Positions 31,065-60,754 of a DNA stretch of 64,000 nt are shown piece after piece. The stretch covers positions 62,001-126,000 of the forward strand of contig JAJFIQ010000006.1 in the NCBI GenBank assembly GCA_021774785.1. Reading direction: 5' to 3'. A model generated the notes under the pieces. It was not told where the DNA came from and did not search any database. It saw nothing but the letters and a program-made list of their open reading frames with translations. This DNA comes from Emcibacter sp. (GTDB lineage: Bacteria; Pseudomonadota; Alphaproteobacteria; Sphingomonadales; Emcibacteraceae). A program made the position numbers and the translations under genes. Every line of letters begins with the position of its first letter. Position 1 is the stretch's first letter.

Positions 31065-31928
31065 CTAGCCCCTTGGCCAAACGCGAGGGAACAATTCCCC
31101 TGAAAATGTTTCACCGTCTTTCAATGTTATTGCGGGAACCGTATCCATTACTTTCTTGTTTTCCAGAAAGGTGCCAGCGCGGTTGTCAAATGTCACATCA
31201 TCTCCCAGATAGCGCAGGGCAAGTCCCCGACGACGACCTGTGGTGGATTTATTGCCGGACGCATAATGCAGTGTAAGCGGATGATGAATTAACACATCCC
31301 CCGGCTCCATTTCCCAGCACAGGATGTCATGCCTATCTCTTTCCGCCTCTATATCGGGCAGTGGCTCCAGTCCGGCCTTGGCATAAATATCGGCGAAGCC
31401 GGTTTTATCGCCAAAAGTACTGGGGCCAAATAGCTTGCCCCACTTATGGGAGCCCTTCACATAGACCACAACGCCGCTTTCCTCATTGGCAGGGTCGAAA
31501 GGCACCCAGACGGATATGACCTGATTACCACGGACCGGCCAATAGGATAAATCCTGATGCCATGGTGTAGGTTCATCCGTATTGGGTTCTTTGACCAGCA
31601 ATTGATCATAAAAGAAGTTCAGACAATGACTGTCCATTACCTGTGCTGCGATTTCAGGCATGGGGGAGGCCATCATAAAGGCTTTAAAGGCGGGGTCTCT
31701 GCGCCAGATGAAAAAATCACCATAATAACGCCCTTGTTTACCCTTTGGCGTATATTCCAATGACGCACTGCCCGGATTATTAAGTATGCGTTCAACGGCA
31801 TCTTGCATCACTTCTATCCATTCCAATGGCATCACGCCACGCAGCACATGGGCGCCGTTCTCTTCATAAGCAGCAATTTCTTCTGACGTGATATCGCGAC
31901 ATAACCGGCTTGGTAGAGATGCATACAT
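31065..31928 (-). CDS. Phytanoyl-CoA dioxygenase (PhyH) family oxygenase
   Basis: This 287-residue protein is a non-haem Fe(II)/2-oxoglutarate oxygenase. The facial triad can be read as His124 and Asp126 in TPWHQDLSYW and His221 in HHPLTLHYASGN. The 2-oxoglutarate-binding arginine probably lies in RRRGLALRY. The segment VWVPFDPANEESGVVVYVKGSHKWG is typical of PhyH relatives acting on small molecules. Such enzymes hydroxylate or desaturate acyl or amino-acid-derived substrates. It is the last gene of a three-gene operon with a LuxR-type regulator and a TPP enzyme, so its substrate may come from the TPP enzyme's product. This is inference. Confidence 0.88.
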   Translation of the reverse strand: MYASLPSRLCRDITSEEIAAYEENGAHVLRGVMPLEWIEVMQDAVERILNNPGSASLEYTPKGKQGRYYGDFFIWRRDPAFKAFMMASPMPEIAAQVMDSHCLNFFYDQLLVKEPNTDEPTPWHQDLSYWPVRGNQVISVWVPFDPANEESGVVVYVKGSHKWGKLFGPSTFGDKTGFADIYAKAGLEPLPDIEAERDRHDILCWEMEPGDVLIHHPLTLHYASGNKSTTGRRRGLALRYLGDDVTFDNRAGTFLENKKVMDTVPAITLKDGETFSGELFPRVWPRG

Positions 31929-32011
31929 TTTCTTGTCTCCTATTTTTAAAGATATTATTTAAGCAGTTAAGCAATATGCCGTCTATCATCCCATTGGATT
32001 ACAACCAATAG

Positions 32012-32794
32012 TCAGACCTGCTTGCTTAATTCCGCAAGGCAAAGGGGAAATAATTCATTCAGGCTCGATATATCCAACTTGGTATAAGCACGGCGCATGA
32101 AAGTTGCCACGGTGGGTTGTTTTATACCGAGATCAAGTGATACCCCTTCCCTCGTCAGCCCCTGCATAACACGGGCACAGACTTCAATTTCCCGTTTACT
32201 CAAATCACCCCCGAGCTTTGATACCAGCCCTTCCAGCTTTTCAATGGGGGGGATCGTTTTTGCATCCCATTCAGTGGGTACAGAGAAAGAAAGATGCCGT
32301 TTAACCAGGGCAGAAATCAAACATGCTTCCACGCTGATAACTTCCCTGTCTTGCTCGGTGAAATAACCGCTTTCCACATCACGGTAAAAATTCAACGTAA
32401 ACCATTTCTGTTTTTCATGATCAATAAGAGACAGGCGGTCAAGCAAACCATTATCCTCATATATATTCTTCCGATAGCCTTCGTCTTTAATATCCTCAGC
32501 ATGCATTTGAAGCAAAAGCGGGATCGCTTCATCTTCATCGCTTTTTTGCCCCACCCATTTCAAACTCGGATCATGATAATAATATGAGGACTTCTCGTAT
32601 AATTGACTTAAACGGGATGTGATCGAGCCTTCACCCCTGCTGGTGCCCGCAATAAAATGAGGGACAAAAGCATGATCAAAGACAAATAATGTCACATGAT
32701 CAACAGGTAATAACCTGTCCAATGCGCCACTAAAATGTTGAAAAAAATCGTCCCTGCCAAGGGCCATGACCAATTCTGGTGCAATGCGGATCAC
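32012..32794 (-). CDS. LuxR-family transcriptional regulator
   Basis: The 260-residue product ends in a LuxR/FixJ-type HTH (LSKREIEVCARVMQGLTREGVSLDLGIKQPTVATFMRRAYTKL). The N-terminal 170 residues form a mixed domain (VDHVTLFVFDHAFVPHFIAG...) that looks GAF-like, and I cannot identify an autoinducer-binding WYDPWG-type signature. There is no receiver domain. It overlaps the upstream TPP enzyme gene by 4 bases (ATGA) and lies 83 bases before the PhyH gene. A regulator embedded between two enzymes probably senses a pathway compound and controls the operon itself. Confidence 0.88.
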   Translation of the reverse strand: MIRIAPELVMALGRDDFFQHFSGALDRLLPVDHVTLFVFDHAFVPHFIAGTSRGEGSITSRLSQLYEKSSYYYHDPSLKWVGQKSDEDEAIPLLLQMHAEDIKDEGYRKNIYEDNGLLDRLSLIDHEKQKWFTLNFYRDVESGYFTEQDREVISVEACLISALVKRHLSFSVPTEWDAKTIPPIEKLEGLVSKLGGDLSKREIEVCARVMQGLTREGVSLDLGIKQPTVATFMRRAYTKLDISSLNELFPLCLAELSKQV

Positions 32795-34524
32795 CCCGTG
32801 ATCTTTCTGAGAAGGGCGCGACCTATGAAGCGCATTTTTGTAGCAAAATCAAACCGGTCCAGATTGGCTTTTAAGGCCCCCTTGGTAAAACGGGTTTTCT
32901 TGTCATAATCAATATTGACCTCTACCACCACCGGCTGCCCCTTACTGGCCAGATTAATGGCCTGTATTATGCCCAGTTCCGCATAATTATTGGTTGCAAT
33001 ATTAACATAAGCCGCCCCTACAGATTCCGCAAAAGGTGCATATTTCAAAGTCGGCAACACCGTGCATATCTTGCGGCTATAGGGTACATCCTGTGCCTGT
33101 GCTATCTGACTCAGTTCACCATCAGAAAAGACAAAATAAACGACACCCAAGCTATCGGATGTGGCCGTTAATATTTCCATGGCAGTCATCAAAAAGGCCC
33201 CGTCACCCACAATGCCAACCACTTGTTTTTCACGGTTTTCAAGTTTTGCCGCAATAGCTGCGGGCACGCAATAGCCCATACAGTTAAAATCTGTCGGTGA
33301 TATGAAATGACGTTTGCCACGGATCGGCATTAATTCCGCCGCAAGAAATGTATGATTGCCATCATCGGTCAAAACAATAGCATCATCATTAAGTGCCTTG
33401 TCCAGGCTAGAGAAAAAGACCCCCGGATTTACCTTATTACCGGAATCATGGTCCAGCCATTCTGTAAGATAGTCTGTCTTATTCTGCACGATCAAATTCG
33501 CAACATTATTCGTGTCTTCCCGTCCCTTTGACTTTGACAGGACATCAGCCAAGGCATCCAACGCGGGTTTTGCATCGGCTTCTATGGCTATTTCTGCCGT
33601 ATAATTAGCCCCCAGGGCTTCCGGGTTTATATCCACATGAATTATCTTTTCCGGCACAGGTAAAGAGAAGCTACCGGTGGCAATTTCACCGAAACGCACA
33701 CCAACAGCAAGCAATACATCACAATCGGCAAAAGCGGCTTCAGCAGCGGGAACGGCGGCGGGACCGTATCCCATCCCAACATGCATGGGATGATCATGAG
33801 GGAAAGCCGCCAGCCCCTGAAGGCTTGTCGCCACGGGTGCATTTATACTGTCGGCAATGGCGACCGCACTGTCCCGGGCCGCCATGGCACCCCAACCCAG
33901 AAACAGTCCAGGTTGCCGGGCATTAAGCAAAAGCTCTGCCGCATCCTTAATAGCCCCATCGGGCAATGCTTTTTTGCATAATGTTAAGGGCTTTGGTTCC
34001 GGTATTTCCGAAATTTTCCCCTTGGTAAATTGAATATTGACCGGAAGCTCCACATAAACCGGGCCTGGTTCCCCGGTCATGGCCGTTTCGTAAGCCTCAA
34101 ATATGATCGGCATCACTTGATCATGGCTTTCCACTTTGAAAGTTTTTTTGGTTAAAGGCGCCATCAGAGCCTGCATATCCATATCATGAAGTTGATATTT
34201 ATGACCCGTATCCGTGCGCACACCGCCCGATACCACCAACATGGGGATACCATCAAGGAAAGCTTCACCAATACCGCTCATGGCATGGGTTAAACCCGCT
34301 GCAGGCACGACCACAAGCACACCAATCTGTTCAGATGTGCGACTGACCGCATCGGCCATGAAAGAGGCACCGCCTTCGTGGGTGACAAGCATGGGCCGAA
34401 TTTGATTTGACATATTCAATTCGTCATAGATTTCTGTGGTATGAACACCCGGAATACCAAATGTATGACGAACCCCTAATGCCTCCAAGGCATTCCTGAA
34501 TAACCACGCCCCTGTTTTTTGCAT
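32791..34524 (-). CDS. TPP-dependent acetolactate-synthase-like enzyme (AruI-like)
   Basis: The 577-residue enzyme has the three-domain layout of the acetolactate synthase/decarboxylase superfamily. An N-terminal pyrimidine-binding domain carries the catalytic Glu50 in LVTHEGGASFMAD. A central domain follows (about 190-330), then a C-terminal TPP/Mg domain with the VGIVGDGAF...FVFSDGEL motif near residue 440. The opening FGIPGVHTTEIYDEL resembles the subgroup that includes 2-oxoarginine (5-guanidino-2-oxopentanoate) decarboxylase AruI. It is not accompanied by a small regulatory subunit, so a role in branched-chain amino acid synthesis is unlikely. It heads an operon with LuxR-family and PhyH genes. 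It probably decarboxylates or carboligates a 2-oxo acid whose identity is unknown. Confidence 0.87.
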   Translation of the reverse strand: MQKTGAWLFRNALEALGVRHTFGIPGVHTTEIYDELNMSNQIRPMLVTHEGGASFMADAVSRTSEQIGVLVVVPAAGLTHAMSGIGEAFLDGIPMLVVSGGVRTDTGHKYQLHDMDMQALMAPLTKKTFKVESHDQVMPIIFEAYETAMTGEPGPVYVELPVNIQFTKGKISEIPEPKPLTLCKKALPDGAIKDAAELLLNARQPGLFLGWGAMAARDSAVAIADSINAPVATSLQGLAAFPHDHPMHVGMGYGPAAVPAAEAAFADCDVLLAVGVRFGEIATGSFSLPVPEKIIHVDINPEALGANYTAEIAIEADAKPALDALADVLSKSKGREDTNNVANLIVQNKTDYLTEWLDHDSGNKVNPGVFFSSLDKALNDDAIVLTDDGNHTFLAAELMPIRGKRHFISPTDFNCMGYCVPAAIAAKLENREKQVVGIVGDGAFLMTAMEILTATSDSLGVVYFVFSDGELSQIAQAQDVPYSRKICTVLPTLKYAPFAESVGAAYVNIATNNYAELGIIQAINLASKGQPVVVEVNIDYDKKTRFTKGALKANLDRFDFATKMRFIGRALLRKITG

Positions 34525-35470: not shown

Positions 35471-38431
35471 TTAGAATCTTGTGGTAACTTTTGCCCAGAA
35501 ACGACGACCAATCACATCAAATACGCCTGGCTCAGTGTTCGCATTGAACGCACTGTGGAACCGTGGAGCTTGAATATCGGTAAGGTTATTCACACCAACA
35601 GTCAATGTAGTTCCCTTATGTGTGTAGGATGCGATCAAGTCATGATACCAGACAGATTCAGCAACAGAATCATCCGTTAGGAATGCAGGACGTAATCTGT
35701 CCTGAGTTTCCCCAATGAATCTGGTATCCCAAGTCAGATCCCAATTTTCACCATTAACACCAACAGATGTGTTCCAGCGCCATTCAGGGAAGATACCAAA
35801 GCCGTCGGCAGTACCAACGAATTCAGAAGTACCACTGAGTGGGAAGGATTGTGTCCGGCTGTTCATCCATGTCGCTGCGAAAGTAGCATGATATCCGGTT
35901 ACAGTTTCATTGTCGATTGACCCTTGGTAGGAAGCATTAATGTCAATACCATCAGTTTTAATGGTGCCCAAGTTACCAAATTCCGTAACCGTATCACCAG
36001 GAAAGATAAAGGTAAGAATTGGACCAGTACCAGAATCGTTAAAGCCCTGACAAGCAGGAGCCGTTAGGCCAACTGAATCCATACAAGCCCGGAACAGATC
36101 ATTAATATCATCGGTGCCAATGACATTATTGATTTCGATGTTCCAATAATCAACACTGATGGCTAATCCAGGAATCGCTGTCGGGGTAATGACTGTACCA
36201 AGAGTAAAGGTTTTTGATGTTTCAGGCTCCAAGGGCTTCTCAGGTGCCAAAGTCGTCTGCAGAGACTGCCATGCAAAACCAAATTCCGTGCTATCATCTG
36301 TACCGAAACCTAGAGCGTTACAATTGTCCCAGATGGTCTGGGTGATTGTGCCGCCTTCAAGACGTCTGTCAGCAAATTCGCAGAGCGGTTCAACGATTGG
36401 GAAACTGCCGGATTGTCTCTGATTGATTTCCGTAATATTAGGAGCACGGAAACCCGTAGAATATACCGCCCGGAATCGAACATCATCGATTGGCGCATAG
36501 TTCAGGCCAACACGGTAAGTCGTTGTTTTTCCAGCAGATGTATTATAATTGGAGTGACGAACAGATGCTTCAGCTGAAAGCTCTTTGGCCCATGATGTAT
36601 CATTGGCAAGGGGTAGGAATATTTCACCAAAATATTCTTTAACGCCGAAATCACCTGATGATGGCTGAGATGCCCCACCAGTAGTCAGGCCTTCACCGAT
36701 GAATTCATCAGGTAAGAACTGACCTTCTTCATTGCGATTCTCAAAGCCGATAGCCCATCCAACAGGTCCGCCGGGCAATTCTATCATGCCTTCGGTATCA
36801 CCGGTCAGGTTGAAGGACCATAACGTCATGCGAGACTTTCTCAAATCCTTAAGTGACTTGGCCATAAGAAAGGTTAACTGATCCTCAGTTATCCCGCCGA
36901 TAGGTGAGAATGGATCAATTACACCGGCTGCATCGCAGGCAGGATCAAGAGCACATTGCGCTGGGTCCACTGCAATGGCAAATTTGTCAAAACGATGAAG
37001 ATTCTTGGTTTCATCAATCTGCTCATTTTCAGCATAAGTATATGAGAAATCCCATGACAGGTTATCACTCACATCGCCCTTCAAACCACCAACCATACGG
37101 AAAGTATCTGAGGATTGAGCAAAGTTACGACCACCAGTTTCAGCAAAACGACGGTTAACGCGAACACCGGAACCTGTAATGCCATAAGGGTTCAAGTCAT
37201 CGGCGTTGCCCAAAATTCCGTCAGGTCCTGCGGCATTATCACCAAAAGGGTTAAATGGGTTTGAGGCTGGAACCCAGTCATTGGGAAGGCCGGACCCAAA
37301 CGCATCATTGGTCGTACCGAACGAAGCATCCGGCGCCAATGTCTGTGAAGACGTACGACGGGTGTATAAGACTTCCATATAACCTTCAACGGTACCGAAA
37401 TTAGCACTGTCGATAAGGTCGTAATGACCATTTGCGCCAAACTGCCAACGCTCATTTGGGGTAATCAAAGCATTGTCTGGTGCAAAGTTAAAAGTATCAG
37501 TCGCGCCGTTAAAGGCACGAACTTCGCCGGTTACTTCATCCGTAATCAAACTACCAGCTGGGCCGCCAGCGGCAGCAAGCTGTGAAGCCAAAGTCGTGGT
37601 TGCGGAACCAAATACGGCGTCCTGAGGACGCATAGTACGGTGATTGGAAGACCCACTACCCTGAGCCAGGAATGTGCCATCAGCCTGAAGAAACGGGAAT
37701 AATGTTTCTTGTGCGAACTCACGTTCGGACTGTTTAATTTCATTCTGTTTGCTATACTGCATGGACATGGTGAAGTTACCACGTTCATTTGATACGCCAC
37801 CCAAGGCTGAAATACCCCAGTTCTCGGCATCCCACTTTTCTGTCGCCGCACCATAGTCCGCAGAAATTTCGAAACCTTCGAAATCATCATGCAGAATGAT
37901 GTTAACAACACCGGCAAGGGCATCTGAACCATAAATCGTTGAAGCGCCATCTTTAAGAACTTCAATGTTTTTGATCATGGCACTTGGTACAGAATTCAAA
38001 TCAACCGCACCATCACCGTTGGCATCACCAACCTGACGACGGCCATTGATCAGAATCAATGTCCGGTTAAAGCCCAAACCGCGCATGTCAACTTTTCTGG
38101 CACCATCATTACCATTGTTGGTTGATGCACCCAGTTGGAAACCGGTAAATGCCGGAATGTCTTTCAAGAACTCATCAACCCCGGTTACCCCAGAGTTTTT
38201 AAAGTCTTCTGAGCTAAAGGATGAGATGGGGCTGGCTGAACTGTAAGTATCACGTTTAATACGTGAACCGGTAACAATAACCTCTTCAAATGATACTTCT
38301 TCATCTGCTGCGGCGTCATCGTCAGCTGCATATGAAGCCTGAATTGAGAATGGCAAAATAGCGGCAACAGCAATTGCTGAAATGCCACTTTTCAGCGAAA
38401 ATTTACGTTTAATTGATGTATGGATATTCAA
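35471..38431 (-). CDS. TonB-dependent outer-membrane receptor (no STN domain)
   Basis: This 986-residue receptor has a signal peptide (cleavage near ASYA), a TonB-box-like EEVIVTGSR segment, and a plug domain (about 55-175) with VDMRGLGFNRTLILINGRR and GASTIYGSDALAGVVNI. A large beta-barrel ends in an aromatic C-terminus (FWAKVTTRF). It imports an unidentified large substrate using TonB energy. It begins with TTG at 38431-38429, well supported by AGGAGG (38438-38443) six bases upstream, with no in-frame ATG nearby. It lacks the N-terminal STN domain of its neighbour, so it should transport but not signal. A long hairpin in its leader suggests regulated expression. Confidence 0.94.
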   Translation of the reverse strand: MNIHTSIKRKFSLKSGISAIAVAAILPFSIQASYAADDDAAADEEVSFEEVIVTGSRIKRDTYSSASPISSFSSEDFKNSGVTGVDEFLKDIPAFTGFQLGASTNNGNDGARKVDMRGLGFNRTLILINGRRQVGDANGDGAVDLNSVPSAMIKNIEVLKDGASTIYGSDALAGVVNIILHDDFEGFEISADYGAATEKWDAENWGISALGGVSNERGNFTMSMQYSKQNEIKQSEREFAQETLFPFLQADGTFLAQGSGSSNHRTMRPQDAVFGSATTTLASQLAAAGGPAGSLITDEVTGEVRAFNGATDTFNFAPDNALITPNERWQFGANGHYDLIDSANFGTVEGYMEVLYTRRTSSQTLAPDASFGTTNDAFGSGLPNDWVPASNPFNPFGDNAAGPDGILGNADDLNPYGITGSGVRVNRRFAETGGRNFAQSSDTFRMVGGLKGDVSDNLSWDFSYTYAENEQIDETKNLHRFDKFAIAVDPAQCALDPACDAAGVIDPFSPIGGITEDQLTFLMAKSLKDLRKSRMTLWSFNLTGDTEGMIELPGGPVGWAIGFENRNEEGQFLPDEFIGEGLTTGGASQPSSGDFGVKEYFGEIFLPLANDTSWAKELSAEASVRHSNYNTSAGKTTTYRVGLNYAPIDDVRFRAVYSTGFRAPNITEINQRQSGSFPIVEPLCEFADRRLEGGTITQTIWDNCNALGFGTDDSTEFGFAWQSLQTTLAPEKPLEPETSKTFTLGTVITPTAIPGLAISVDYWNIEINNVIGTDDINDLFRACMDSVGLTAPACQGFNDSGTGPILTFIFPGDTVTEFGNLGTIKTDGIDINASYQGSIDNETVTGYHATFAATWMNSRTQSFPLSGTSEFVGTADGFGIFPEWRWNTSVGVNGENWDLTWDTRFIGETQDRLRPAFLTDDSVAESVWYHDLIASYTHKGTTLTVGVNNLTDIQAPRFHSAFNANTEPGVFDVIGRRFWAKVTTRF

Positions 38432-38437
38432 GATATT

Positions 38438-38443
38438 CCTCCT
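38438..38443 (-). promoter_or_regulatory. Ribosome binding site that fixes a TTG start
   Basis: AGGAGG on the minus strand lies six bases before TTG 38431-38429. It is the strongest Shine-Dalgarno sequence I noticed in the window and decides the start of the TonB receptor, which has no ATG before its signal peptide. Confidence 0.8.
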
Positions 38444-38454
38444 AAATCATTTTT

Positions 38455-38550
38455 AAAAAAAGAAGGGTAATGATATTTTATTGTGAGAAAAAACTCATTC
38501 GTAGGGAAAGCTACTCTGTCCCTCACAGCATAAATTTATCATTGCCCTTC
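38455..38550 (-). terminator. Long terminator-like hairpin in the TonB receptor leader
   Basis: GAAGGGTAATGATA (38462-38475) pairs with TATCATTGCCCTTC (38537-38550) with one mismatch. The stem continues inward to TGTGAG/CTCACA around a loop of about 34 nt. On the minus strand the hairpin runs straight into T7 (38461-38455), and the receptor's ribosome site follows 12 bases later. It may terminate the upstream receptor gene (stop at 38704) or act as an attenuator for the downstream one. Confidence 0.65.
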
Positions 38551-38703
38551 AAGACCAAGACCCTTGGGGGAATGAAAGCCGCTATGAAAAAAACGATCTT
38601 AATGTGGAAAAAACCCAATCAAATCAATAGCTAAAAATTATTTTGCCAAATGGTAAAAAAACAGAATAATATTCTGTTCGTGGCGCCATAATTGATTGAA
38701 TTA

Positions 38704-41700
38704 TCAATAAAAGATATTGATCCCAAAATGGAAATAAGGACCAAGAACATCATAAATAGTGGGAAAAGTATTCGCCTGCTCCTGATCGGTACCAATAAAA
38801 TTAGGTTTGACATTAAAAATATTATCAACCCCACTTCGAATTATTACATTTTCTGACATATGATACTGTGCATAAAGGTCAAAGTAATTCTCCGCCGGCA
38901 ATCTCGGTACTGCCACATCACGAATTTCTGCATTTCTATTTTTGATACTGCCAAAATGTCGCCATCTGACGGAAAGCTCCAGCTTGTCACTGCTCCATGT
39001 TGCAAGTTGGGTAAAACGGAATTTGGGTAAGGGGGTACCGCAACCGCCGGAAAATTTCCCCGCGCAATCTATTAGAGTCCTGCCATTGGCCAGCTCCAAT
39101 TTATTATTGATCAGATAAGAGCCTTGAAAGATAAGTTCAAACTTTTCATTATCACCAAGCAGGTTCCAATCAAGTTGCTTCTGATAGAACAGCTGACCAT
39201 CAATACCTGATGTCGTTGTCTGGCTTATATTTTCCAGACTGGCATTAATAAAATCCAACTGCCCATCCGGTCTTCGGGATATCATGTCACAGGACTGGGG
39301 ATTAGAATTATCTTCCCTGAAACAATTGCTGATAATTTCCGATGCTCCCCCTGAGAACAGGGCTATTTGATCATGAAGTGCAATATGATAATAATCCACA
39401 GTCAATTGAACTTCAGGCAGGAATGACGGCTGATATATTAACCCCAAGGTGAAAGTATCAGATTTTTCCACTTCCAAATTCATATTGCCACTAATAATTT
39501 GCCTTACCCGTATAGTCTCTTGATCAAAATTACCAACAAGATTGGCCGGAACGCCAGTGGCAATACAAATATCATTAATATCCCCATAAATATCTATATT
39601 TCCCTCGACACAAGGGTCATCAATGTCAATAAGACTGTTATTTCCTTCAGAAAAAAGTTCTGAAATATTGGGTTCCCGAATGGCTCTTTGGTACTGTCCC
39701 CTAATTCTAAGATCAGAAAAAGGCTGCCAGTTGAACCCTGCTGCCGCAGACCAGGCTGATCCGGATATGCTGTAATCGGAATAACGCAGGGCACCAGATA
39801 ACTCTAATGTCTCAAAACCAGTCATACCTTCTACAAGGGGCAGTTTAAACTCACTAAAAAGACTCAGGACACTATATTTACCAATAGCAGCAAAAGTATC
39901 TGAAAATCCACTTCCCGGATCGGAAAGGGCTGCATCATCCCCGACAAATGAACTATCTTCCTTGCGCCAGTCTGTACCAATCAACAATGTCAGTCCGTCA
40001 CCCACACCATAATCTATGGTGCCATTGAGATAGGCCGTTATATCCTGCCGTGTATATTGGGTGCTTTCTGCACGGTTAACAGTAATATATTCAATAGCTT
40101 CCGGCGACAGATTGCCTTCGCCATAAATATTGGCTGGCACACAACCATCCTGTCGAGCCACAGGGTCACTACAAATATAGTCACCACCAGACTGGATAAC
40201 ATTCGCTGCTGCCCGAAAATTATTTATTGAAACAGCATTGATATTTCTTTTGGTATTTTTGTAACGGTTATAATTATAGTGAACCAGAAAATTCCAATCT
40301 GGCGCAAATTCCCCCTGCAAACCCAATACAACATTTAGGGAATGACGTTTGTTTTTGATCTGTCGTGGCCCTATTTCCGTCATACGACGTAGAAAAACGG
40401 GTATTTCCGCCTGACCATCGGCGATAAAAAGTAGTTCACCCTTATTCCCGGCACTTCCCCCCACCGCCGCAATGGGCGAGCCATCCGCCGCCCAAAGAGG
40501 GTTAAGGGTGGAACTCAAGGCTTGTCTGGCCTGAATGGGATTTCCGTTATCAAACATAGGATTCCCCCCAGCATCACGCGCCTGCAAAATTTTTCCCGTG
40601 CCATACCAGTCAATGCCCCGCAGAGCTGCTCTGGCATTTTCCTGAAGAAATGGATTTTCCACAGGCACCACAAAATTTTCTAAAATGACCGGCGTCGGAG
40701 CAAGTTCCAGATCAACCTTATTTTGTGAGAATAGTATCTGATTGAAAAATTCTACATTATCCGTCAAACGGTATTTGGCGCCAAAGGTAGCCGAAATGCG
40801 GTTTTGCGGCAGTTGAAGAAAATTAAACGGTGCAAAATTGAAGCGATCTGTAAGACTGTCAAAGGCTAACGCCTCTCCATTCATACCAAATCGTTCCAGC
40901 CCGGGATGAGGGCCACTAGGCGGAATACCCATGACCAGACCACCGGGGATAAAGATGCTTCCTATCGGGATAAAACCGGGGACACCACCGTCTTCTGGCG
41001 ATAAGAATTCACCAAACCCAAAACGCGGGTCAGTTGAACCAGGCCGAATGAAGCTGTCACTAAGTGCAAAAAAGGAAAAATCCCGATCTCTCTGCATAAC
41101 GGCTTGTCGTTCCAAGGCTTCAAAATGAAGAAAGGCACTGCCCTTGTCATCATTGAATGACTGTCCATAAACCAGATTAACGTCATATTTATCGCCATCG
41201 CCATCTTTGGATACACGGTAACGGGTCAAGCCTTCGAACCCGTCAAAATCGTCCCTCAGTTTAAAGTTAACCACGCCGGCAATAGCATCCGATCCATAAA
41301 CCGCCGACGTACCACCGGTGGCTACCTCTATTTTATCCAGAAGAAATGTTGGAATAGTATTTAGATCAACAATACCTGTCTGATTACCTGGTACATAACG
41401 TCTGCCGTTGATAAGAACCAAAGTTCTTATGGCACCAAGTCCTCTTAAATCAACATTGGCTATCCCCTCACCGGGGTTATTTGAATTGCCCGTAAGAGAG
41501 GACACAATCTGTGGTAATTTATTTAACAATTCTTCAATATTAGCCGTACCGGTTCGCATTATGGTTTCGGATTCTATGATGGAAACAAGATTTGGTGCTG
41601 ATAGTTCTGCACGTTTAATACGTGATCCGGTTATGACAAGCTCTTCTGGTAGCCTGCCAGCAGTCTCTGATTCACTCGCCCCAGTAAATATATTCTTGGG

Positions 41701-42102
41701 TTTTTCTTTTTTAAAAGAAGGCTTGTTTTTTGCAGTTGATATTACCGGTTTGAAATCAGGGTCTTTGCGAACCACGATGGTTCCTTCCGGGTTACGAAAA
41801 GCTATTAATCCGGTATCTTTCAGTATCTCCGCCAAAGCCGCAATGGGTCTGTAACGGCCTGATAATCTACGGGCAGAAATATTTCTGGCTTCATCATAAC
41901 GAAATATGATTTGTTCCCCCGATTGCTCACCAAACAGGATCAAAGCATCCGCCACAGAATGTTGGGGTATTTTAAACTCTATAGGAACAGGGGATGAATC
42001 AGTTTGGGCGAAAGAAACACTATGCGTCATCAATATGGTACCCAAACATATCGTTACACTAAAAATCAATGAGATATATTTTTTTCTCATTCTACGCAGC
42101 AT
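38704..42102 (-). CDS. TonB-dependent receptor with N-terminal STN signalling domain
   Basis: The 1132-residue receptor starts with a signal peptide (cleavage near SFAQ). An STN (secretin/TonB short N-terminal) domain follows at about residues 42-110 (FKIPQHSVADALILFGEQSGEQI), then a TonB-box/plug region (about 155-270, ELVITGSRI, VDLRGLGAIRTLVLINGRR, GGTSAVYGSDAIAGVVNF) and a long beta-barrel. STN domains pass ligand status to a FecR-type anti-sigma factor, and fecR- and fecI-like genes lie directly upstream, so this is a surface-signalling transducer. The ligand is unknown, and the barrel is not diagnostic for siderophores. An in-frame ATG four codons later could also be the start. Confidence 0.94.
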   Translation of the reverse strand: MLRRMRKKYISLIFSVTICLGTILMTHSVSFAQTDSSPVPIEFKIPQHSVADALILFGEQSGEQIIFRYDEARNISARRLSGRYRPIAALAEILKDTGLIAFRNPEGTIVVRKDPDFKPVISTAKNKPSFKKEKPKNIFTGASESETAGRLPEELVITGSRIKRAELSAPNLVSIIESETIMRTGTANIEELLNKLPQIVSSLTGNSNNPGEGIANVDLRGLGAIRTLVLINGRRYVPGNQTGIVDLNTIPTFLLDKIEVATGGTSAVYGSDAIAGVVNFKLRDDFDGFEGLTRYRVSKDGDGDKYDVNLVYGQSFNDDKGSAFLHFEALERQAVMQRDRDFSFFALSDSFIRPGSTDPRFGFGEFLSPEDGGVPGFIPIGSIFIPGGLVMGIPPSGPHPGLERFGMNGEALAFDSLTDRFNFAPFNFLQLPQNRISATFGAKYRLTDNVEFFNQILFSQNKVDLELAPTPVILENFVVPVENPFLQENARAALRGIDWYGTGKILQARDAGGNPMFDNGNPIQARQALSSTLNPLWAADGSPIAAVGGSAGNKGELLFIADGQAEIPVFLRRMTEIGPRQIKNKRHSLNVVLGLQGEFAPDWNFLVHYNYNRYKNTKRNINAVSINNFRAAANVIQSGGDYICSDPVARQDGCVPANIYGEGNLSPEAIEYITVNRAESTQYTRQDITAYLNGTIDYGVGDGLTLLIGTDWRKEDSSFVGDDAALSDPGSGFSDTFAAIGKYSVLSLFSEFKLPLVEGMTGFETLELSGALRYSDYSISGSAWSAAAGFNWQPFSDLRIRGQYQRAIREPNISELFSEGNNSLIDIDDPCVEGNIDIYGDINDICIATGVPANLVGNFDQETIRVRQIISGNMNLEVEKSDTFTLGLIYQPSFLPEVQLTVDYYHIALHDQIALFSGGASEIISNCFREDNSNPQSCDMISRRPDGQLDFINASLENISQTTTSGIDGQLFYQKQLDWNLLGDNEKFELIFQGSYLINNKLELANGRTLIDCAGKFSGGCGTPLPKFRFTQLATWSSDKLELSVRWRHFGSIKNRNAEIRDVAVPRLPAENYFDLYAQYHMSENVIIRSGVDNIFNVKPNFIGTDQEQANTFPTIYDVLGPYFHFGINIFY

Positions 42103-42190
42103 ATCAAATACTCATTTCCTACCCTGATTTTCACCAGGCTCTATCCGATTTTTCTAGCCCAACTCTATTAACAGGCAATGATCATAAAAC

Positions 42191-43267
42191 TCAGGCTTCG
42201 ACTATGACAGCTATATAAGGCGTAAAACGTATTACCCTGACTGGAAAAGCATCCTCGATAGCATGAACTAAGGCGTCAAAATCTTCTATGTCAATAACGC
42301 CGCCCAACTTCATATCATTTAGCGTATCATCCGCAATAACTATTTTTTTATTAGAATATCGGGATATTTCCTTAATAACTTCGGATAGCTTTTGTCCTCT
42401 GAAGATTAGCTTACCATCTCGCCAGGCATTCTTTTGTGATAATTCGAACTCATTTGCAGCCCGGACAATGCTAAGGTTTTTATCAAAAAAAACTATTCTT
42501 TCCCCGTAAGTGACCAATACAGATGTTTGGCTTGGTTTTGAAAAATCGATTACTTTCTCTTTCCTGTATTTTTTATGGTCTACTGCTACGGTACCTTCAA
42601 AGACAAGGACTTCAATCATCTCATCATTATCATAGATATTGAAAGACGTGCCAACAGCCCGCACATCACCCCAAGATGTTTTGACAATGAAAGGCCGCTC
42701 TTGATCTTTTGCCACATCAAATCGCGCTTCCCCTTCGAGCAGATGTATTCTCCTGATATTATCATTAAAATCTACTCTGAAGGTTGAATCAGTATTCAAA
42801 TAAACGGTTGACCCATCGGCCAGTTGAATGGTTTGCTGCTCCCCTGTTGCCGTTCGATATGTCCCCTCCGGCAAATAATTGTTATAAAGACTGATAACAA
42901 ACGAGCAGATAATAAGAACCGTTGCGGCAACAGCCCATTTTTGCCATTTTGTCCCAACCAAGGCCTTTATCTCTACTGGTTTCTTCTGCACAAAGTTAAC
43001 AATTGTATTCTCTTCTGAATCTTGGGCTGAACTCAGGATAGGTGAACCTGTTTCTCGTATTTCCTGAATTTCCGGCAGGTTGTCTATGCTGGCCCAAAAA
43101 TCAACAACAGCGTTGAAAGCTTGCCTGTGGGATGGCTCCGCCGTAACCCACTCTTCAAACTGATCCAACACATGTTCATTGCCGGCCTCATCCTCAAGTT
43201 TCAGATACCATCTTCTGGCGACATCCATATGGTCGTCGCTATCTGATATTTCAATAATCTTATTCAT
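42191..43267 (-). CDS. FecR-family anti-sigma factor
   Basis: This 358-residue protein has the DUF4880 cytoplasmic N-terminus that grips the sigma factor (ARRWYLKLEDEAGNEHVLDQFEEWV, then HRQAFNAV). One membrane helix near residue 135 (WAVAATVLIICSFVISLY) is followed by the FecR periplasmic domain (GTYRTATGEQQTIQLADGSTVYLNTDS) and a C-terminal STN-like domain (LSEVIKEISRYSNKKIVIAD). Members hold or assist the cognate ECF sigma factor until the receptor's STN domain signals. It lies 27 bases after the sigma gene and 88 bases before the STN receptor, the classic fecI-fecR-receptor order. Confidence 0.95.
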   Translation of the reverse strand: MNKIIEISDSDDHMDVARRWYLKLEDEAGNEHVLDQFEEWVTAEPSHRQAFNAVVDFWASIDNLPEIQEIRETGSPILSSAQDSEENTIVNFVQKKPVEIKALVGTKWQKWAVAATVLIICSFVISLYNNYLPEGTYRTATGEQQTIQLADGSTVYLNTDSTFRVDFNDNIRRIHLLEGEARFDVAKDQERPFIVKTSWGDVRAVGTSFNIYDNDEMIEVLVFEGTVAVDHKKYRKEKVIDFSKPSQTSVLVTYGERIVFFDKNLSIVRAANEFELSQKNAWRDGKLIFRGQKLSEVIKEISRYSNKKIVIADDTLNDMKLGGVIDIEDFDALVHAIEDAFPVRVIRFTPYIAVIVEA

Positions 43268-43294
43268 CAGACTTCCCTCTGATTTAACATTACA

Positions 43295-43891
43295 TTATCC
43301 CCTAGACAATTTTTTGTTTGAATCTCTAGCCTCAAACGCTGATTGACTAGTTTCGTTCCTCTGTTGATTTTTGGCTTTCTCCATATATTGCTGACATTCA
43401 CGCATTCCTCGTAACACGTGTTTTTCTGCCGTACTAATGGCGATATTCAGTTCTTGTGATACTTCTTTGAAAGATTTCTTGTGGATAACCCGCAAGGTAA
43501 AGGCCTGCCTGCATTTGGGTGGCAATTTTGCTACGGCATCACAAAAGGTTTTAAATTCCTGTTTGGAACTTAATTGTTGGTCGGCAAGTGGCTCGTTGCT
43601 TTCCACCTCAATTTCTTCCATGTCAATACCCGTATCAAATCTTACGATCTTTCTCCGGCGAAGTGTATTCATCGCCAGATTATGTGCTATCCGATAAAGG
43701 AAAGCTTTATGAGAGATTATTTCCTCGGGTTTTTTTGCACTGTGAAGTTTTAGAAATGCTTCTTGCGCTACTTCCTCCGCCTCATTCTCAGAACGTAGAA
43801 AATTATATACATAACCGACTAACCGTTTGCTATGATCCCGATATAACTCTTCCAGATTACTCTGCTGCTTATCAATCACTCGGACATCCAT
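43295..43891 (-). CDS. ECF RNA polymerase sigma factor (FecI-like)
   Basis: The 198-residue product has a sigma-70 region 2 (about 15-80, LYRDHSKRLVGYVYNFLRSENEAEEVAQEAFLKL, then AFLYRIAHNLAMNTLRRRK) and a region 4 HTH (about 125-180, LPPKCRQAFTLRVIHKKSFKEVSQELNIAISTAEKHV). No anti-sigma-like or SnoaL extension is present. The KKSF..VS.EL..S.AE.HV pattern fits FecI-type ECF factors. It is the first gene of the signalling locus, and its targets should include one or both TonB receptor genes downstream. The C-terminal 25 residues are charged and low in complexity. Confidence 0.94.
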   Translation of the reverse strand: MDVRVIDKQQSNLEELYRDHSKRLVGYVYNFLRSENEAEEVAQEAFLKLHSAKKPEEIISHKAFLYRIAHNLAMNTLRRRKIVRFDTGIDMEEIEVESNEPLADQQLSSKQEFKTFCDAVAKLPPKCRQAFTLRVIHKKSFKEVSQELNIAISTAEKHVLRGMRECQQYMEKAKNQQRNETSQSAFEARDSNKKLSRG

Positions 43892-44285: not shown

Positions 44286-47200
44286 TCAGAAACCATCCGT
44301 ATTCAGAATCGTTGAGGCTGGCTCAAGGGGATCGGATCCAGCATCTACCTCGGCCTTATCACTATCACCGTCACCATCCGTATCCGTGACGAAAGGGTCA
44401 GTTCCGGCCAGTTGCTCATCAAAGTTATTCAGACCATCCCCATCAGGATCACCGTCTGGACCATTTTCCGCCAGTCCCGTACCATCATCGGTTGGGTTAA
44501 GACCACTTAGAACTTCAAATCCATCCCACAGGCTGTCAATATCCGTATCCCGAATATCAGGGTCTACGCGCCCATCCGTTACCTCGACCGTATTGGAAAG
44601 CCCGTCACCGTCCGCATCAAGAGGAAGACGTTTCAGGTATATTCTTGAATTTCCTTCACGTGAATCGGTATAGATTGCAACTTTGGTACCAGCGGCCGCT
44701 CCCGCGCCACCTGTGCCAATATGGGCGGCAGAACGTCTTACACCACCACCATTAATCGCCGTAGGCATATCAGGAATAGAGATAATATCAGAGACTGGCG
44801 CACCCGCACCGGAGAAGGACCGCATTAACAAATCAACACCTGTACTACCGCAACAGGACTGATTGTCATAATAGATCACATGGACGTTGCCATTGCTTTC
44901 CACTCTGGAATATGGATGGTTGCTCTTGACACCGTTACGGGAAGAAACAGCCCTATCAGGTAAGGTGATAGAAATGCTGTCTGTCCCCACATCTGGAACA
45001 AAGCCGATCATAAAGACTTCTTCATTACCATCCGAGCCAAAGCGATTATCCTGATAAGTCACCCGCACCTCACCCTCAGGTGTGATACCTATGCCCGGAT
45101 GACGTTGTCTGCCACCACTATCAAATACAATGACAGGTGTAATGAGGACCGTGCCATCGCCACCATCCAGCATACTGTAGAAAAGCTGATCATCATCACG
45201 GAAAGCCACATGTACATTGCCAGCGGCACCCAGGGCAATTTCCGGCAAACTTTCATCATCAGTATTGGTGCTGAAATTCACAAATGACGTTGAAAAAATA
45301 ATTGTGCCTGCACTATCAACCTTCTGAACTTCAAATCCAACACCTCTGCTGAAAATCAGCGCCGCAACATCTGAACCCGTACTTGCATCACCAACAACTG
45401 CCGGATGATGTACTTCCCGTGTTAATCCCGCTGGACATATGCCATCCACTTCATTTGGACAAATATTCTCTTCTGCGACAATAGTATTACCGGCCGAAAG
45501 GTCAACTGTACCAGCGACAAGATCAGGTGCAAGATAAGCATGATAAATATCACTGCCAAAACTGCCCTGCCATATCACGTGGAAATTGCCGGTACCATCC
45601 ATTGAAATACGGGGCCGTTTGGCATCAAGTCCAGTTTGCAACGTGGTTTCACTAATCAAGGTTGCAAGACCATTGGTCACAGCTTTATAGACGACGCTTT
45701 CTGAACTATTTATCCATACCATATGAATATTTCCTGCATCATCAATGGCAACATCCGGCATGAAGGCCGACGTTTCAGTGGAAGATACCCCGATTGCTAC
45801 AATATCATCCGTCGGATCATTGGGGTCTGTACCATCAACCAGAATTTCTTCTCCATCATTGCGCCCACCACCATCAGAATCCGCAGTCAGTGGATCGGTA
45901 GAGAAGACATCTAGTTCATCACCATCCGACAATCCGTCACGATCCGTATCAGACAGTGTGGGATTAGTGCCATGAGTATTCACCTCATCACCATCGGAAA
46001 GGCCATCACCATCCGTATCACTCACGGTCGGGTCTGTTCCGTTGACATCCTCTTCGGCAGCGGTAAGGCCATCCCCATCGCTGTCAGAGGCTCCATCGGA
46101 AGCATCCAGAGGATTAAGTCCAAAGGCAACCTCAAATCCATCCGTGGCCCCATCATTATCACTGTCAGGGTCAAGAATATTAATGAGGCCATCTGTATCG
46201 GTATCCAGGAATGGGTCCAATTCAGCCCCATCAGCAAGACCGTCACCATCTGTATCACTGTCAAGTGGATCACTACCAGCTGTAATTTCTACACTATCAG
46301 AATGACCATCTCCGTCAGTATCGGCAAGGGTAGGGTCTGTTCCAGCCGCTTGTTCCTCAAGATTGGTTAATCCATCGCCATCACCATCTTCTGCATCATC
46401 ATTGGTGCCGTCACCGTCGCTATCCTGCTCCAGAGGGTTCAAACCAGCATCTACTTCAAATCCATCCAACAGACCGTCACCATCCGTATCCGGCGTAGTA
46501 TGAATAGTACCAAGAGCAAATTCTTCAGCATTGGACAGGCCATCCTGATCAAAATCCGGATTAAGTGCCCGCATCACGACCTCAAGCCTATTAGTGGGGG
46601 TCCGCCTTGTATAGGTTACATATACAGTTGGCAAATCTACCGTCAGATAAGTTCTACTCATGGCTCTGAAGCCTCTGATATCTGCTTTCTGGTCAAGTGT
46701 AACTAATCTTTCGGCATCTATAATCGCACCCGCCTGATCCACCAGATTATGCATAACGCCACTATTGCCACTGTTTAATCTTCCCGGAATATAAATACTG
46801 TGAATATTACCATCTTCATCCACAACACCAACCGGGTGACGTGATCTAATGCCGTCTTCAGGAGATATCTGGAAAGCACCAGTAACGATGACCGAGGCAT
46901 CGGCAACCACACCATTCTGAGCATCCAGTGTTGGATCAATGATCAGAGCGCCGGTTTCTGTTGTGAAGAAGTCAGCCGTGAAACCATTTCTTTCACTGTA
47001 AACAATCACAACCTTACCCTCTGGTGTCACACTGATTTCGGGCCATTTGGAATGCTGACTATTACTTGGCGTAACCTGCGTAGGGGCAATAAGGATATCA
47101 CCGAAAATTCCATCTAGCATACTATAGTGAACCTCAGAGGCAAAAGATGATGTTGCCCTGCTGAAGGCAATATGAGCATTGTCATCTTCATCAACTGCGA

Positions 47201-50200
47201 TTGTTGGCCAGCCCCCTCTTATAGATGAACTATTACCACTGCCCACATCCACCGTTTTTGGTGCGACTACCGCAATACCAAGGGCGTCAAGTTGAGCATA
47301 TTTAATGGGTGTACTGGTACTTCTGCTGCCTTCGCGCCAGACAATATGAACATATCCTCGGCTATCGACCACAAGACGGGGGTGAGACGCGCGTATTTCG
47401 TCAATTGGAGAAATAATTTTCGTAGCCACAACCCGGAGCAATTCAAGATTACCCGCACTACCATCCCTGAGTACATCAGTATCATATGGGTCAATCTGGG
47501 TATATGATACATCATTATTCCGACGATACCAAACCACATGCACCTTATCATCTGGCCCCACTGCTATGGCAGGCTGACGCAACAGGAAGCTACCGTCCGT
47601 GGTCAGCACCGTATCATTAATCAACGTCGTACCATCGGGGCTGAGCATGGTGTACATGATATTGTTGCCACTGTTATTGAGCCATACTATATGAATATTA
47701 CCCTGACTGTCGACAGCAGGCATTACCTGATCCGTATTTACATTCGGATTGTTGACAAAATGGTATATTTTAAAGTCATCCAGGGCAAACAATGGGTCAG
47801 TGCCATCAGCGTTTACTTCACCACCATCCGACCGGCCACCATTATCGGTATCGGCATCAAGGGGGTCGGTACCATGGGTGTTAATTTCATCACCATCGCC
47901 AAGACCATCGTTATCAGTGTCAAACACGGTTGGGCTGGTAAAGTGTATATTCACTTCATCACCATCATTTAAACCATCCGCATCAGTATCAGCAACCGTT
48001 GGCGATGTTCCCAGGTTAAATTCTTCCAGATTAGTCAATCCATCCGTATCTAAATCAACAGAAGCATCATTTACCAACGGATCAAGGTTATTATTAATCT
48101 CATAGAGATCCGGCAAACCATCACCGTCCGTATCGTTACTGTTTGGGTTAGTACCATGGGTATTAACCTCATCACCATCACTCAGGCCATCATTGTCACT
48201 ATCCGTATCGAACGGATCAGTGCCATTGGTAATTTCATCACCATCGTTCAGGCCATCGTCATCCGTATCGGGATCACGAATATCCGTTCCCAGTGCGATT
48301 TCTTCACTATTGGTGAGGCCATCACTATCAGCATCCGCCGCCGCATCATCGGGGTCGGTCGGATTAAGTCCCAAGTTCAATTCTATATCATCGTTTATAC
48401 CGTCACCATCCGTATCCTGATTCAACGGATTTGTCACAACAGCAGCACCTCGTCTCATAACAACAGCCCTGCTTGACCCATCTTGTACAGACGACTGCCA
48501 GACACCAACCATCGAACCATCACTTAGAACCGCCACACCCGGTTCAGCTTGGTTCTGATCCGTCGTAAGGTTGATTAATCTTTCAGAAAAATGTGGAACT
48601 CCTCTTGGGCTAAAGTTCCGGAAGACAACCCCTTCACCAGACCCATCCTGTTGCAATGATTCCCAGACAACGGTAAAACCACCATCTTTCCCTCCGGTAA
48701 TAAAGACATCATCCTGTTGATCAAAAGTAGTTTGATTAAGTTGTATTTCGTCAGTCACAGCCACGCCATCCTGATTAAATACCCGGGCATACATTCCGTC
48801 TGTACTACCGTCCTGACGATCAGAAGTCCAGGCAACCACAAATCCACCCTCAACCTCAGTCGAGTATGGATCAAACTGGTCATCAAATGTTGTTTTATTG
48901 AGAATAAACTCACCACCAACCTTGACACCACTTGCATCAAACATCTGAGCAAAAACGGCCCAACCACTGCCGTCCTGACCAAACGTTGCCCAGCTGATGA
49001 CAAAACCATCACCCACAGAGGTAACTGTTGGATCGGATTGACTGCTATTGGTGGTCGTATTTACTGGAATTTCACCACCAACAGACAACCCGTCACTGCC
49101 ATAGCGTTGAGCAAATACGCCAGAGCCATTGGCATCAACCCCAGCCCAGGTAATGACAAACCCACCATCGGCTAATGCTGATATTTCTGCATCATTTTGA
49201 TTCCCACTTGTAGAAGTATTAACACTGATTTCACCACCAATCTTAATACCCGTATCACTGAATATCTGCGCGACTACGCTATCACCATTTCCATCCTGCA
49301 GACTTGAACTCCAGACCACAACAAAGCGACCATCCAACAAGGTTTTCACCGCCGGATCGAACTGATTGGATGCCAAGGTACTGTTAACAGGGAATTCGTC
49401 CGTAACAGGAGCCATATTCGCATCAAACAGGCGCCCGACAATTTCGTCAGTTGAATTTGCCGCCTGATTAAAACTTTCCCACACAGTAATAAAATTGCCA
49501 TTATCCAAAGCAGCAATCACTGGACTATCCTGATTATTCAATGTAGTAGAGTTCGCGATTATCTCATCAAAAGGTAATGGTGCAATATTTAGCCCTAGGA
49601 TTTCAGACCCGTCGTTTAGACCATCACCGTCTGAATCTACATTCAATGGGTTTGTTCCGGCATCCACCTCGGCACCGTCATCAAGGCTATCACCATCAGA
49701 ATCCGGATCATTGGCCTTGGTACCTAGGGCGAATTCTGCGCCATTAGTCAGACCATCGCCATCAACATCACCATCCGTATCATCAGCAAGCGGGTCAAGA
49801 CCATTGCGGACTTCATAACCGTCCGGCATACCATCACCATCAGTATCCGGATTAAACGGATCTGTACCGAAAGTTAGCTCATCATCATTACTGAGACCAT
49901 CTTCATCTTCATCCCCGACCACAAAAGCAAGACCAGACATGCGACGGTTACCCATACTGCCAAGGTCAGTAATCGCGCCCGTTGCACGATCCACCCGTGC
50001 CAGACGGGCATCATTTGCGGCACTAACTATGATACTGACAAATATATTGCCTTCATCATCAATGGCGAGACCAGGAATTGCGCGCCTAGACGGGCCACCG
50101 GTTAAGGTTAAAGTGCTGTTAGTTGCTAAAGTGACAGGATCAATGAAGAACAGTATGCCAGTTCTGCTAACAGCGACAACTTGATTTGTTGTTTTATCAA

Positions 50201-59200: not shown

Positions 59201-59294
59201 AACCGGACAATATACCTATCATGATTTTCGAAAACAGAGAATATTTTCTGTTTTCAATTTTCGAAATCATTTCCTGCTTATATTTCCAATTCAT
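44286..59294 (-). CDS. Giant 5002-residue modular extracellular protein
   Basis: A long signal region (to AQAQQ, about residue 45) is followed by a BIG2-like domain (about 125-208) and type-3 Asp-rich calcium-binding repeats (about 211-331). Eight carboxypeptidase-regulatory-like repeats end near 1080. A unique region and three more such repeats run to about 1680. Next come seven Ig-like domains (about 1680-2560), the seventh interrupted by a VWA domain, and an IPT/TIG domain (about 2561-2640). The rest alternates type-3 repeat blocks (about 2641-2881, 3123-3231, 3621-3836, 4244-4501, 4896-5002) with propeller-like repeat regions. The type-3 blocks show DxDGDGL/DxDxDGDGxxDG patterns. I find no autotransporter barrel, RTX nonapeptides, LPXTG or OmpA-like anchor, so the mode of surface retention is unknown. 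It is the last gene of a four-gene operon. An adhesive or matrix role is inference. Confidence 0.93.
48440..49570 (-). repeat. Seven tandem ~50-residue repeats (propeller-like)
   Basis: Within the giant protein (about residues 3242-3618) seven consecutive units share the pattern N-x-T-T-x-x-x-Q-x-x-P, then DG-x-FVV-x-W-x-S, QDGSG, a short strand ending in F, and G-x-x-VGGE. Seven units of about 50 residues fit a seven-bladed beta-propeller, although the fold is inferred from the repeat number and strand pattern. Confidence 0.75.
51375..51615 (-). other. IPT/TIG-like domain in the giant protein
   Basis: The segment begins [20 protein letters not shown] and runs through [20 protein letters not shown] to the closing [14 protein letters not shown]. 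This is the strand order and the G-x-F/N-x-V-x-F pattern of IPT/TIG immunoglobulin-like domains. It separates the VWA/Ig part from the first type-3 repeat stalk after it. Confidence 0.65.
51890..52455 (-). other. VWA domain nested in the seventh Ig-like domain
   Basis: The encoded segment (about residues 2280-2469) begins [12 protein letters not shown], a perfect MIDAS motif (DxSxS form), and continues with [35 protein letters not shown] and [12 protein letters not shown]. These are all standard VWA strands and metal-contact residues. Ig-like sequence lies on both sides: [12 protein letters not shown] before and [16 protein letters not shown] after. A VWA domain with an intact MIDAS should bind a divalent cation and a protein ligand. 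Confidence 0.88.
52490..54260 (-). repeat. Array of Ig-like domains (copies 1-6 and start of 7)
   Basis: Seven units begin with a PP-[TV]-x-x-[IL] strand (for example [39 protein letters not shown]). Most continue with an EG-x-x-V strand, a D-x-x-V/G-V-x-x-VEF-x-x-dG core and a closing ARA-D-x-G-N/Q strand. Each is about 95 residues. Such arrays form stiff extracellular stalks. The seventh starts at the left end of this interval and is split by the VWA domain. Confidence 0.85.
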
Positions 59295-59326
59295 GACATT
59301 TCAACCATTAGTGCTGTGAGTATTAG

Positions 59327-60744: not shown

Positions 60745-60754
60745 AATTAGTTCC

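Follow-up and report, generated by a model that had tools for sequence, protein, structure and literature searches.

Three adjacent genes of a marine bacterium of the Emcibacter group encode a thiamine-diphosphate (ThDP) enzyme, a LuxR-type regulator and a PhyH-type oxygenase. Do they form one pathway that makes, oxidises and senses a small molecule, or do they combine parts that belong to different systems? We addressed this question in a 64,000-nucleotide (nt) stretch of Emcibacter sp. (assembly GCA_021774785.1, contig JAJFIQ010000006.1, positions 62,001 to 126,000), which we call the window. The original prediction, made from the letters of the window, described a compact operon in which an AruI-like enzyme and an oxygenase make and then oxidise a 2-oxo-acid product under a built-in sensor. 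The open reading frames (ORFs) and Pfam families of all three genes were confirmed on the minus strand, as was the overlap of the first two, and every Pfam match of the three proteins was above its gathering score. We read the locus, with a probability of roughly 0.57, as a composite operon in which an orphan LuxR protein would control a small-molecule hydroxylase, PhyH, and which a 2-oxo-acid ThDP enzyme joined secondarily. The features are as follows.

32791 to 34524, minus strand: ThDP enzyme gene, ATG start, 577 amino acids (aa)
32791 to 32794, minus strand: 4-bp GTGA overlap of the ThDP and LuxR genes, suggesting translational coupling
32012 to 32794, minus strand: LuxR-type regulator gene, GTG start, 260 aa, with a GerE domain
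31984 to 32003, minus strand: candidate LuxR operator TGTAATCCAATGGGATGATA, a 20-bp near-palindrome in the 83-nt gap between the LuxR stop and the phyH start
31065 to 31928, minus strand: PhyH oxygenase gene (phyH), ATG start, 287 aa

The gene order and strand of the trio recur in the related genomes G013, G009, G014 and G001, and the trio is therefore no chance array of ORFs (G-numbers denote relatives' genomes; G000 is the window genome, with the window on its contig C24). The ThDP stop overlaps the GTG start of the LuxR gene by 4 bp in G013 as well, and G009 and G014 have a 2-nt gap instead; the genes are presumed to be co-transcribed. Searches with the three proteins, all run on one set of 99 relatives, found close ThDP orthologues (E <=1e-80, at least 64% identity) in 14 genomes, LuxR orthologues (at least about 49-52% identity) in nine and PhyH orthologues (at least ~61% identity) in 14. 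LuxR and PhyH were adjacent in 9/9 genomes with a LuxR orthologue. The full trio was adjacent in five: G000, G013, G009, G014 and G001, where the ThDP gene is partial at a contig end. The LuxR-PhyH pair lies next to a class III alcohol dehydrogenase in G006 and G010, with the ThDP gene elsewhere, and three further genomes (G002, G004 and G008) have the ThDP gene apart from PhyH and yielded no LuxR orthologue. The ThDP gene occurred without a PhyH orthologue in 4/14 genomes (G007, G011, G041, G060), the pair without a ThDP gene in 2/9 (G015, 77% complete; G016, 98% complete), and PhyH without a ThDP gene in G003 (64% complete) and G097. The ThDP enzyme and the pair were thus found separately in near-complete genomes (G011 and G016, respectively). 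Between pyrD and recQ, one chromosomal slot carries the trio in G009 and G014, only the ThDP gene in G007 and only the pair in G015. In G006, G008 and G010, too, the ThDP gene comes after pyrD. We read the trio as an old joint arrangement that was repeatedly broken. The ThDP and PhyH trees leave the order of events unsettled, several deep branches having support below 0.7. Since the trio occurs in only five genomes, the proposal of one make-then-oxidise pathway with a sensor was partly supported: its LuxR-PhyH half was supported, and the joining of all three genes into one pathway was not.

The gap ahead of phyH was found to contain a conserved inverted repeat. Its consensus, TGTCATCC-N4-GGATGATA, i.e. 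TGTCATCCNNNNGGATGATA, was matched with 0-1 mismatch in 8/8 Emcibacter genomes carrying the pair, 75-82 nt ahead of the phyH start, and mononucleotide shuffles equalled the match in 0/1000 cases for each genome. Pairwise identity was 86% in the motif, 20% in the left flank and 60% in the right flank. A remnant with 3 mismatches was seen in G008, which has no LuxR, and the motif was absent from G002 and G004, also without LuxR, where the best match had at least 7 mismatches. Within the window the symmetric form of the motif with up to 3 mismatches occurs at this site only. A scan of the window genome placed the site among the two best matches; the other match with 1 mismatch falls within an ORF, in what looks like a flagellar region. 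No candidate operator was found ahead of the ThDP gene. Scans for sigma-70 promoters did no better than shuffles (7 vs 7.9), and those for terminators gave 6 vs 4.3. From this pattern of conservation we propose the site at 31984-32003 as the LuxR operator of phyH, and LuxR and PhyH constitute a conserved and probably regulatory pair.

The regulator had been predicted to be of the sensor type, and its modelled fold is that of a signal receptor. The GerE domain matched at 4.9e-9. Across 21 scanned members of the family, the sensor half yielded no above-chance Pfam domain, and the autoinducer-binding domain PF03472, sought at E up to 5, was detected in 0/21. When we searched with an AlphaFold2 model (mean predicted local distance difference test score, pLDDT, 87.5), Foldseek returned whole-length matches to the quorum-sensing receptors QscR (E 4.2e-7), SdiA, RhlR and TraR. 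By VIA-align the sensor domain fitted best to the ligand-binding domain (LBD) of VqsR (Z 16.3, root-mean-square deviation 2.6, 155 aligned residues, 17% identity). The sequence profile of the regulator also found the VqsR LBD (5xhx, E 8.5e-6), the sole receptor domain found that way. VIA-align ranked GAF and phytochrome domains as well, at Z ~12, so the shared fold is no proof of an acyl-homoserine-lactone ligand; we kept the receptor assignment because the Z score of VqsR is higher and because of the profile match. Judged by its model, the regulator is an orphan LuxR with a VqsR-like quorum-receptor fold and a GerE DNA-binding domain. No luxI (PF00765) was found beside the LuxR-PhyH pair, and the sole match in the window genome lies on a different contig (C13:42037).

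Paralogues of the regulator (~30% identity) adjoin a metallo-beta-lactamase-fold protein in 11/14 paralogue loci (L011-L024), and in 10 of these 11 a flavin adenine dinucleotide (FAD) monooxygenase (PF01494) lies beyond it; the L022 stretch ends too early. The window genome has this second arrangement on C19, where another LuxR family member serves a different oxygenase cluster. G097 combines both arrangements: LuxR, metallo-beta-lactamase protein and monooxygenase are flanked, on the opposite side, by a divergent LuxR plus PhyH. LuxR proteins of this family therefore seem to be regulators of oxygenase modules. We also observed that the run of LuxR paralogue, metallo-beta-lactamase-fold protein and PF01494 monooxygenase is kept across the order (L294:3694-7227 and L011-L022), and by eye a TonB receptor lies close to the second LuxR-paralogue cluster of the window genome.

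PhyH matched PF05721 at 2.2e-33 (116.8 bits, gathering score 22). Its nearest solved enzyme is MysH (4.7e-53), which we take to be the Fe/2-oxoglutarate enzyme of palythine modification; human phytanoyl-CoA dioxygenase (PHYH) followed at 8.9e-13. Residues H124, D126, H221 and R232 are invariant in 8 homologues and were aligned with human PHYH (2a1x). The HQD motif, the HPLTLH stretch, the distal His H221 and R232 align with both human PHYH and MysH. We assume that H124, D126 and H221 are the HxD...H metal triad and R232 the 2-oxoglutarate-binding Arg. By these residues PhyH is likely an active Fe(II)/2-oxoglutarate hydroxylase. As the original prediction had it, no family member allows the product to be named.

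A class-wide search with PhyH matched 30/385 genomes at 1e-75. Twenty PhyH stretches were examined (16 from this search plus those of G018, G020, G062 and G046). A GerE scan covered every one of them, and their neighbourhoods were read by eye save for those from the last part of L213 through the greater part of L216. Orthologues of PhyH (60-68%) from four other families in the class had no LuxR or ThDP neighbours. Closer to the window genome, the class III alcohol/formaldehyde dehydrogenase adjoins PhyH or the LuxR-PhyH pair in three genomes (G006, G010 and G008). The pair of G016 lies beside an ethanolamine permease (TIGR00908, 431.6 vs 381.75 bits), a glutamine amidotransferase, a glutamine-synthetase-like enzyme and an aldehyde dehydrogenase, and PhyH of G002 beside a related permease, an aldehyde dehydrogenase and an Fe-alcohol dehydrogenase. 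A role of PhyH in an ethanolamine/gamma-glutamyl-amine pathway was considered and rejected, because PhyH is missing from both such clusters of the window genome, and no such context surrounds the closest orthologues of PhyH in other families (G360, G099, G462, G183). The two clusters (L231:2038-9563 and L232:6156-13661) each hold an ethanolamine-permease-like permease, an aldehyde dehydrogenase, an Fe-alcohol dehydrogenase, a glutamine-synthetase-like enzyme and a formylglutamate-hydrolase-like protein, these functions being assigned partly by eye.

We then turned to the ThDP enzyme, which matched TPP_enzyme_N (5.5e-28), TPP_enzyme_M (7.3e-33) and TPP_enzyme_C (3.5e-27). The label AruI-like proved loose: the AruI-type model NF005712 gave 268.6 bits, under its curated cut-off of 500, and the acetolactate synthase model TIGR00118 scored higher (333.1 bits), itself under its cut-off of 538.35. 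Because the enzyme falls under both cut-offs, decarboxylase and carboligase both remain candidates. The best PDB entry by sequence profile was acetohydroxyacid synthase (AHAS) I of E. coli (6lpi, 9.3e-76), followed by BbmA (1.2e-69); profile scores were 258.6 bits for acetolactate synthases, 238.5 for BbmA and at most 170.9 for 2-hydroxyacyl-CoA lyases. The enzyme retains the catalytic Glu50 and the GDG motif. Acetolactate synthases are marked by the catalytic Glu together with an active-site Gln (FQE motif), and here the Glu is kept and an invariant His113 replaces the Gln; the position is Gln in E. coli AHAS I and His in BbmA. A predicted model (pLDDT 70), of supporting use only, had AHAS, BbmA and others as its nearest folds. 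The enzyme thus belongs, by profile and motif, to the acetolactate-synthase-like superfamily and is predicted to be a 2-oxo-acid decarboxylase or carboligase.

The neighbours of this enzyme in other bacteria pointed away from this LuxR and PhyH. We scanned 84,980 species genomes, took the best 80 of 339 loci and recovered the ThDP gene by ORF picking in 76. An FAD_binding_2 dehydrogenase was the immediate upstream same-strand gene in 43/76 loci and was nearby in 3 more; at the DNA level it was detectable in 50/80. These loci span Gammaproteobacteria, Alphaproteobacteria, Burkholderiales, Polyangiaceae, Desulfobacterota, Balneolaceae and other Bacteroidota, Leptospiraceae, KSB1 and Calditrichota. 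By its scores of 498.4 bits in G011 and 517.2 in the window genome (cut-off 476), the dehydrogenase belongs to the NCBIfam equivalog PRK12834/NF009472. Among the 99 relatives it was found in 13/14 ThDP-bearing genomes vs 2/85 others (G003 and G012) and in none of the remaining 83, a table inflated by the kinship of the genomes; in the Kordiimonas family both members with either gene (G041 and G060) carry both. The dehydrogenase gene of the window genome is on contig C11, another contig than that of the window, and hence is not adjacent to the ThDP gene. On C11 it is followed by an HpcH/HpaI-type aldolase and a class I aminotransferase (PRK06108, 453.2 vs cut-off 422), and a divergent aldehyde dehydrogenase is part of the run. 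In the one-contig genome G011, the ThDP enzyme, FAD dehydrogenase, a luciferase-like monooxygenase, aldolase and aminotransferase are consecutive in one run. Given the co-occurrence and these two gene runs, a 2-oxo acid is most probably what the ThDP enzyme converts, in concert with the FAD dehydrogenase, aldolase and aminotransferase. As judged from gene neighbourhoods, its older partner is the PRK12834 dehydrogenase. The co-occurrence search suggested by the original prediction split the trio, with LuxR adjacent to PhyH in every genome that has it and the ThDP enzyme often separate and tied to an FAD dehydrogenase across phyla. Enzyme homologues without the regulator, which had been named as evidence against the proposal, are largely the rule for the ThDP enzyme and not for PhyH within the genus. 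The two-gene FAD-ThDP unit (for example L084:7788-11125) is spread over many phyla, and we found no published description of the pair in the open-access literature, subscription papers lying outside this coverage.

Taken together, the locus probably combines two neighbouring modules rather than forming a single closed pathway that makes a signal. In the first, the orphan LuxR with its VqsR-like fold would bind the 20-bp inverted repeat lying between luxR and phyH, and would control, probably switch on, PhyH, which would hydroxylate a small molecule. In the second, the ThDP enzyme would decarboxylate a 2-oxo acid or ligate it through a C-C bond with the PRK12834-type dehydrogenase; in the window genome it would work with the unlinked FAD dehydrogenase, aldolase and aminotransferase of C11. 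In one Emcibacter lineage the ThDP gene would have been placed directly ahead of luxR-phyH and become translationally coupled to luxR.

Several observations speak against this composite operon. G016 has the LuxR-PhyH pair, yet its best motif match has 5 mismatches. The eight genomes with the motif are not independent, G009/G014 and G006/G010 being close pairs. The 20-mer could be an RNA hairpin, folding at -9.1 kcal/mol in G009 and G006 and at -3.2 in G000. The window genome holds 81 motif matches at 3 mismatches, so the motif defines no regulon; a regulon was also sought by scanning 14 genomes at 3 mismatches and given up, with dozens of matches per genome and a reversed control that was compositionally unfair. 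On the side of the ThDP enzyme, G008 (97% complete) bears it without an FAD dehydrogenase match. The LuxR proteins of the five trio genomes range down to 66% identity to that of the window; the linkage is therefore not merely recent and may be selected.

In the single dedicated pathway, a 2-oxo or acyloin compound would be built or shortened by the ThDP enzyme and then oxidised by PhyH, with LuxR as the sensor of the product; the outcome would be a signal or metabolite under its own control. The shared order of the trio in five genomes, with an overlap or few-base gap, and the quorum-receptor fold of the regulator fit it. So do LuxR-type regulators of another N-terminal type that adjoin FAD-ThDP units in 12 further loci (a different sensor type in 11 and a 215-aa GerE protein in one more), and BbmA, one of the enzymes nearest to the ThDP enzyme in structure and sequence, is titled HKA synthase and forms C-C bonds. 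We nevertheless consider this pathway unlikely and rejected a closed signal-synthesis operon as the principal explanation, because the parts separate in relatives (4/14 and 2/9, as above), the cross-phylum partner of the ThDP enzyme is the FAD dehydrogenase, and the candidate operator precedes phyH with none found before the ThDP gene. Another rival is that operon shuffling joined three unrelated catabolic genes and that LuxR controls something else. Gene positions do shift often, the pyrD-recQ slot holding the trio, ThDP only or LuxR-PhyH only, and the second LuxR family member of the window genome serves another oxygenase cluster. Such accidental neighbourhood is rather improbable, however, given that LuxR and PhyH adjoin in every genome with the regulator and travel together to other locations (G006, G010 and G016), and that genomes without the regulator have a decayed motif or none.

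An analogue of alpha-oxidation would have PhyH 2-hydroxylate an acyl compound and the ThDP enzyme cleave the 2-hydroxyacyl product. The two superfamilies are indeed consecutive enzymes, PHYH and 2-hydroxyacyl-CoA lyase, of peroxisomal alpha-oxidation (PMC8781152). The PhyH catalytic residues are common to human PHYH, and the class III dehydrogenase beside PhyH in three genomes would suit this chemistry. We hold it to be very unlikely, since the ThDP enzyme is nearer to acetolactate synthases and BbmA than to the lyases, PhyH is much nearer to MysH than to PHYH, the two genes part freely in relatives and the unit has no acyl-CoA ligase. A more speculative scheme, to which we likewise give very little weight, is a luxI-less signal circuit: the VqsR-like receptor would sense an acyl-type signal and switch on PhyH, which would hydroxylate and so modify or retire the same signal, and the ThDP enzyme, where it is coupled, would cleave or extend the hydroxylated product in an alpha-oxidation-like turnover. 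The composite operon of a LuxR-PhyH pair and a secondarily joined ThDP enzyme is the reading we retain.

Other parts of the window held features of separate interest. At 14623-16041 a 472-aa protein has a CxxxCxxC radical-SAM-like motif and by eye the look of a lysine aminomutase, with no Pfam match at 0.001. In the segment 16038-30916 the genes of a two-component pair come first, then those of a membrane-fusion protein, of an ABC ATPase and, in succession, of four FtsX-type permeases of ~820 aa (by eye). Occupying 44286-63943 are a 5002-aa protein and, beside it, an ORF of 1062 aa, full of repeat-like adhesin-type domains (by eye); downstream, at 35471-43891, are two TonB receptors and, by eye, genes resembling those of sigma factors and FecR.

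The closest published relatives of the pair are the luxR-luxI-phyH (novR-novI-phyH) loci of Novosphingobium and other Sphingomonadaceae (PMC5012321, PMC3704786). These papers describe the linkage, suspect LuxR control of phyH there too, and call the reaction of bacterial PhyH yet to be described, so that the reaction of LuxR-linked PhyH enzymes is an open question in them. The pair of the window shares with these loci a LuxR gene linked to a PhyH oxygenase, and differs by having no adjacent luxI, a diverged sensor without a PF03472 match and a distant PhyH; a specific candidate operator can be proposed for it. A locus of the classical kind occurs in the order of the window genome, in G033, with luxR, luxI (one interrupting stop) and phyH in that order; its regulator has PF03472 at 3.5e-23, a domain with no match in the window regulator, and the PhyH match on the G033 contig is only 34% identical to that of the window. 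The same G033 run (L297:5765-9952) also holds a P450-like gene, recognised by eye. The window pair has no luxI, occurs as a unit in several locations and carries one predicted operator, so that its regulator, target promoter and enzyme are amenable to tests in a laboratory strain. For the chemistry of the ThDP enzyme the FAD-ThDP pair is a better lead than the neighbours in the window.

Like VqsR and other LuxR solos, the window regulator has a receptor-plus-GerE fold and no neighbouring luxI. It is just 17% identical to VqsR over the 155 aligned residues, and differs in being hard-wired to phyH. The window PhyH departs from MysH in its central segment, residues ~167-195 being unmatched in the best MysH chain, and no mycosporine pathway was recognised near it. 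The ThDP enzyme has the fold, Glu50 and the GDG motif in common with AruI, acetolactate synthase and BbmA. It differs from AruI and acetolactate synthase in lying under their curated cut-offs and having its own conserved FAD partner, and from E. coli AHAS I by His113, at which position it agrees with BbmA. Set against these systems, the LuxR-PhyH pair is a luxI-less variant of the published LuxR-linked PhyH loci, to which a ThDP enzyme from another pathway has probably been added.

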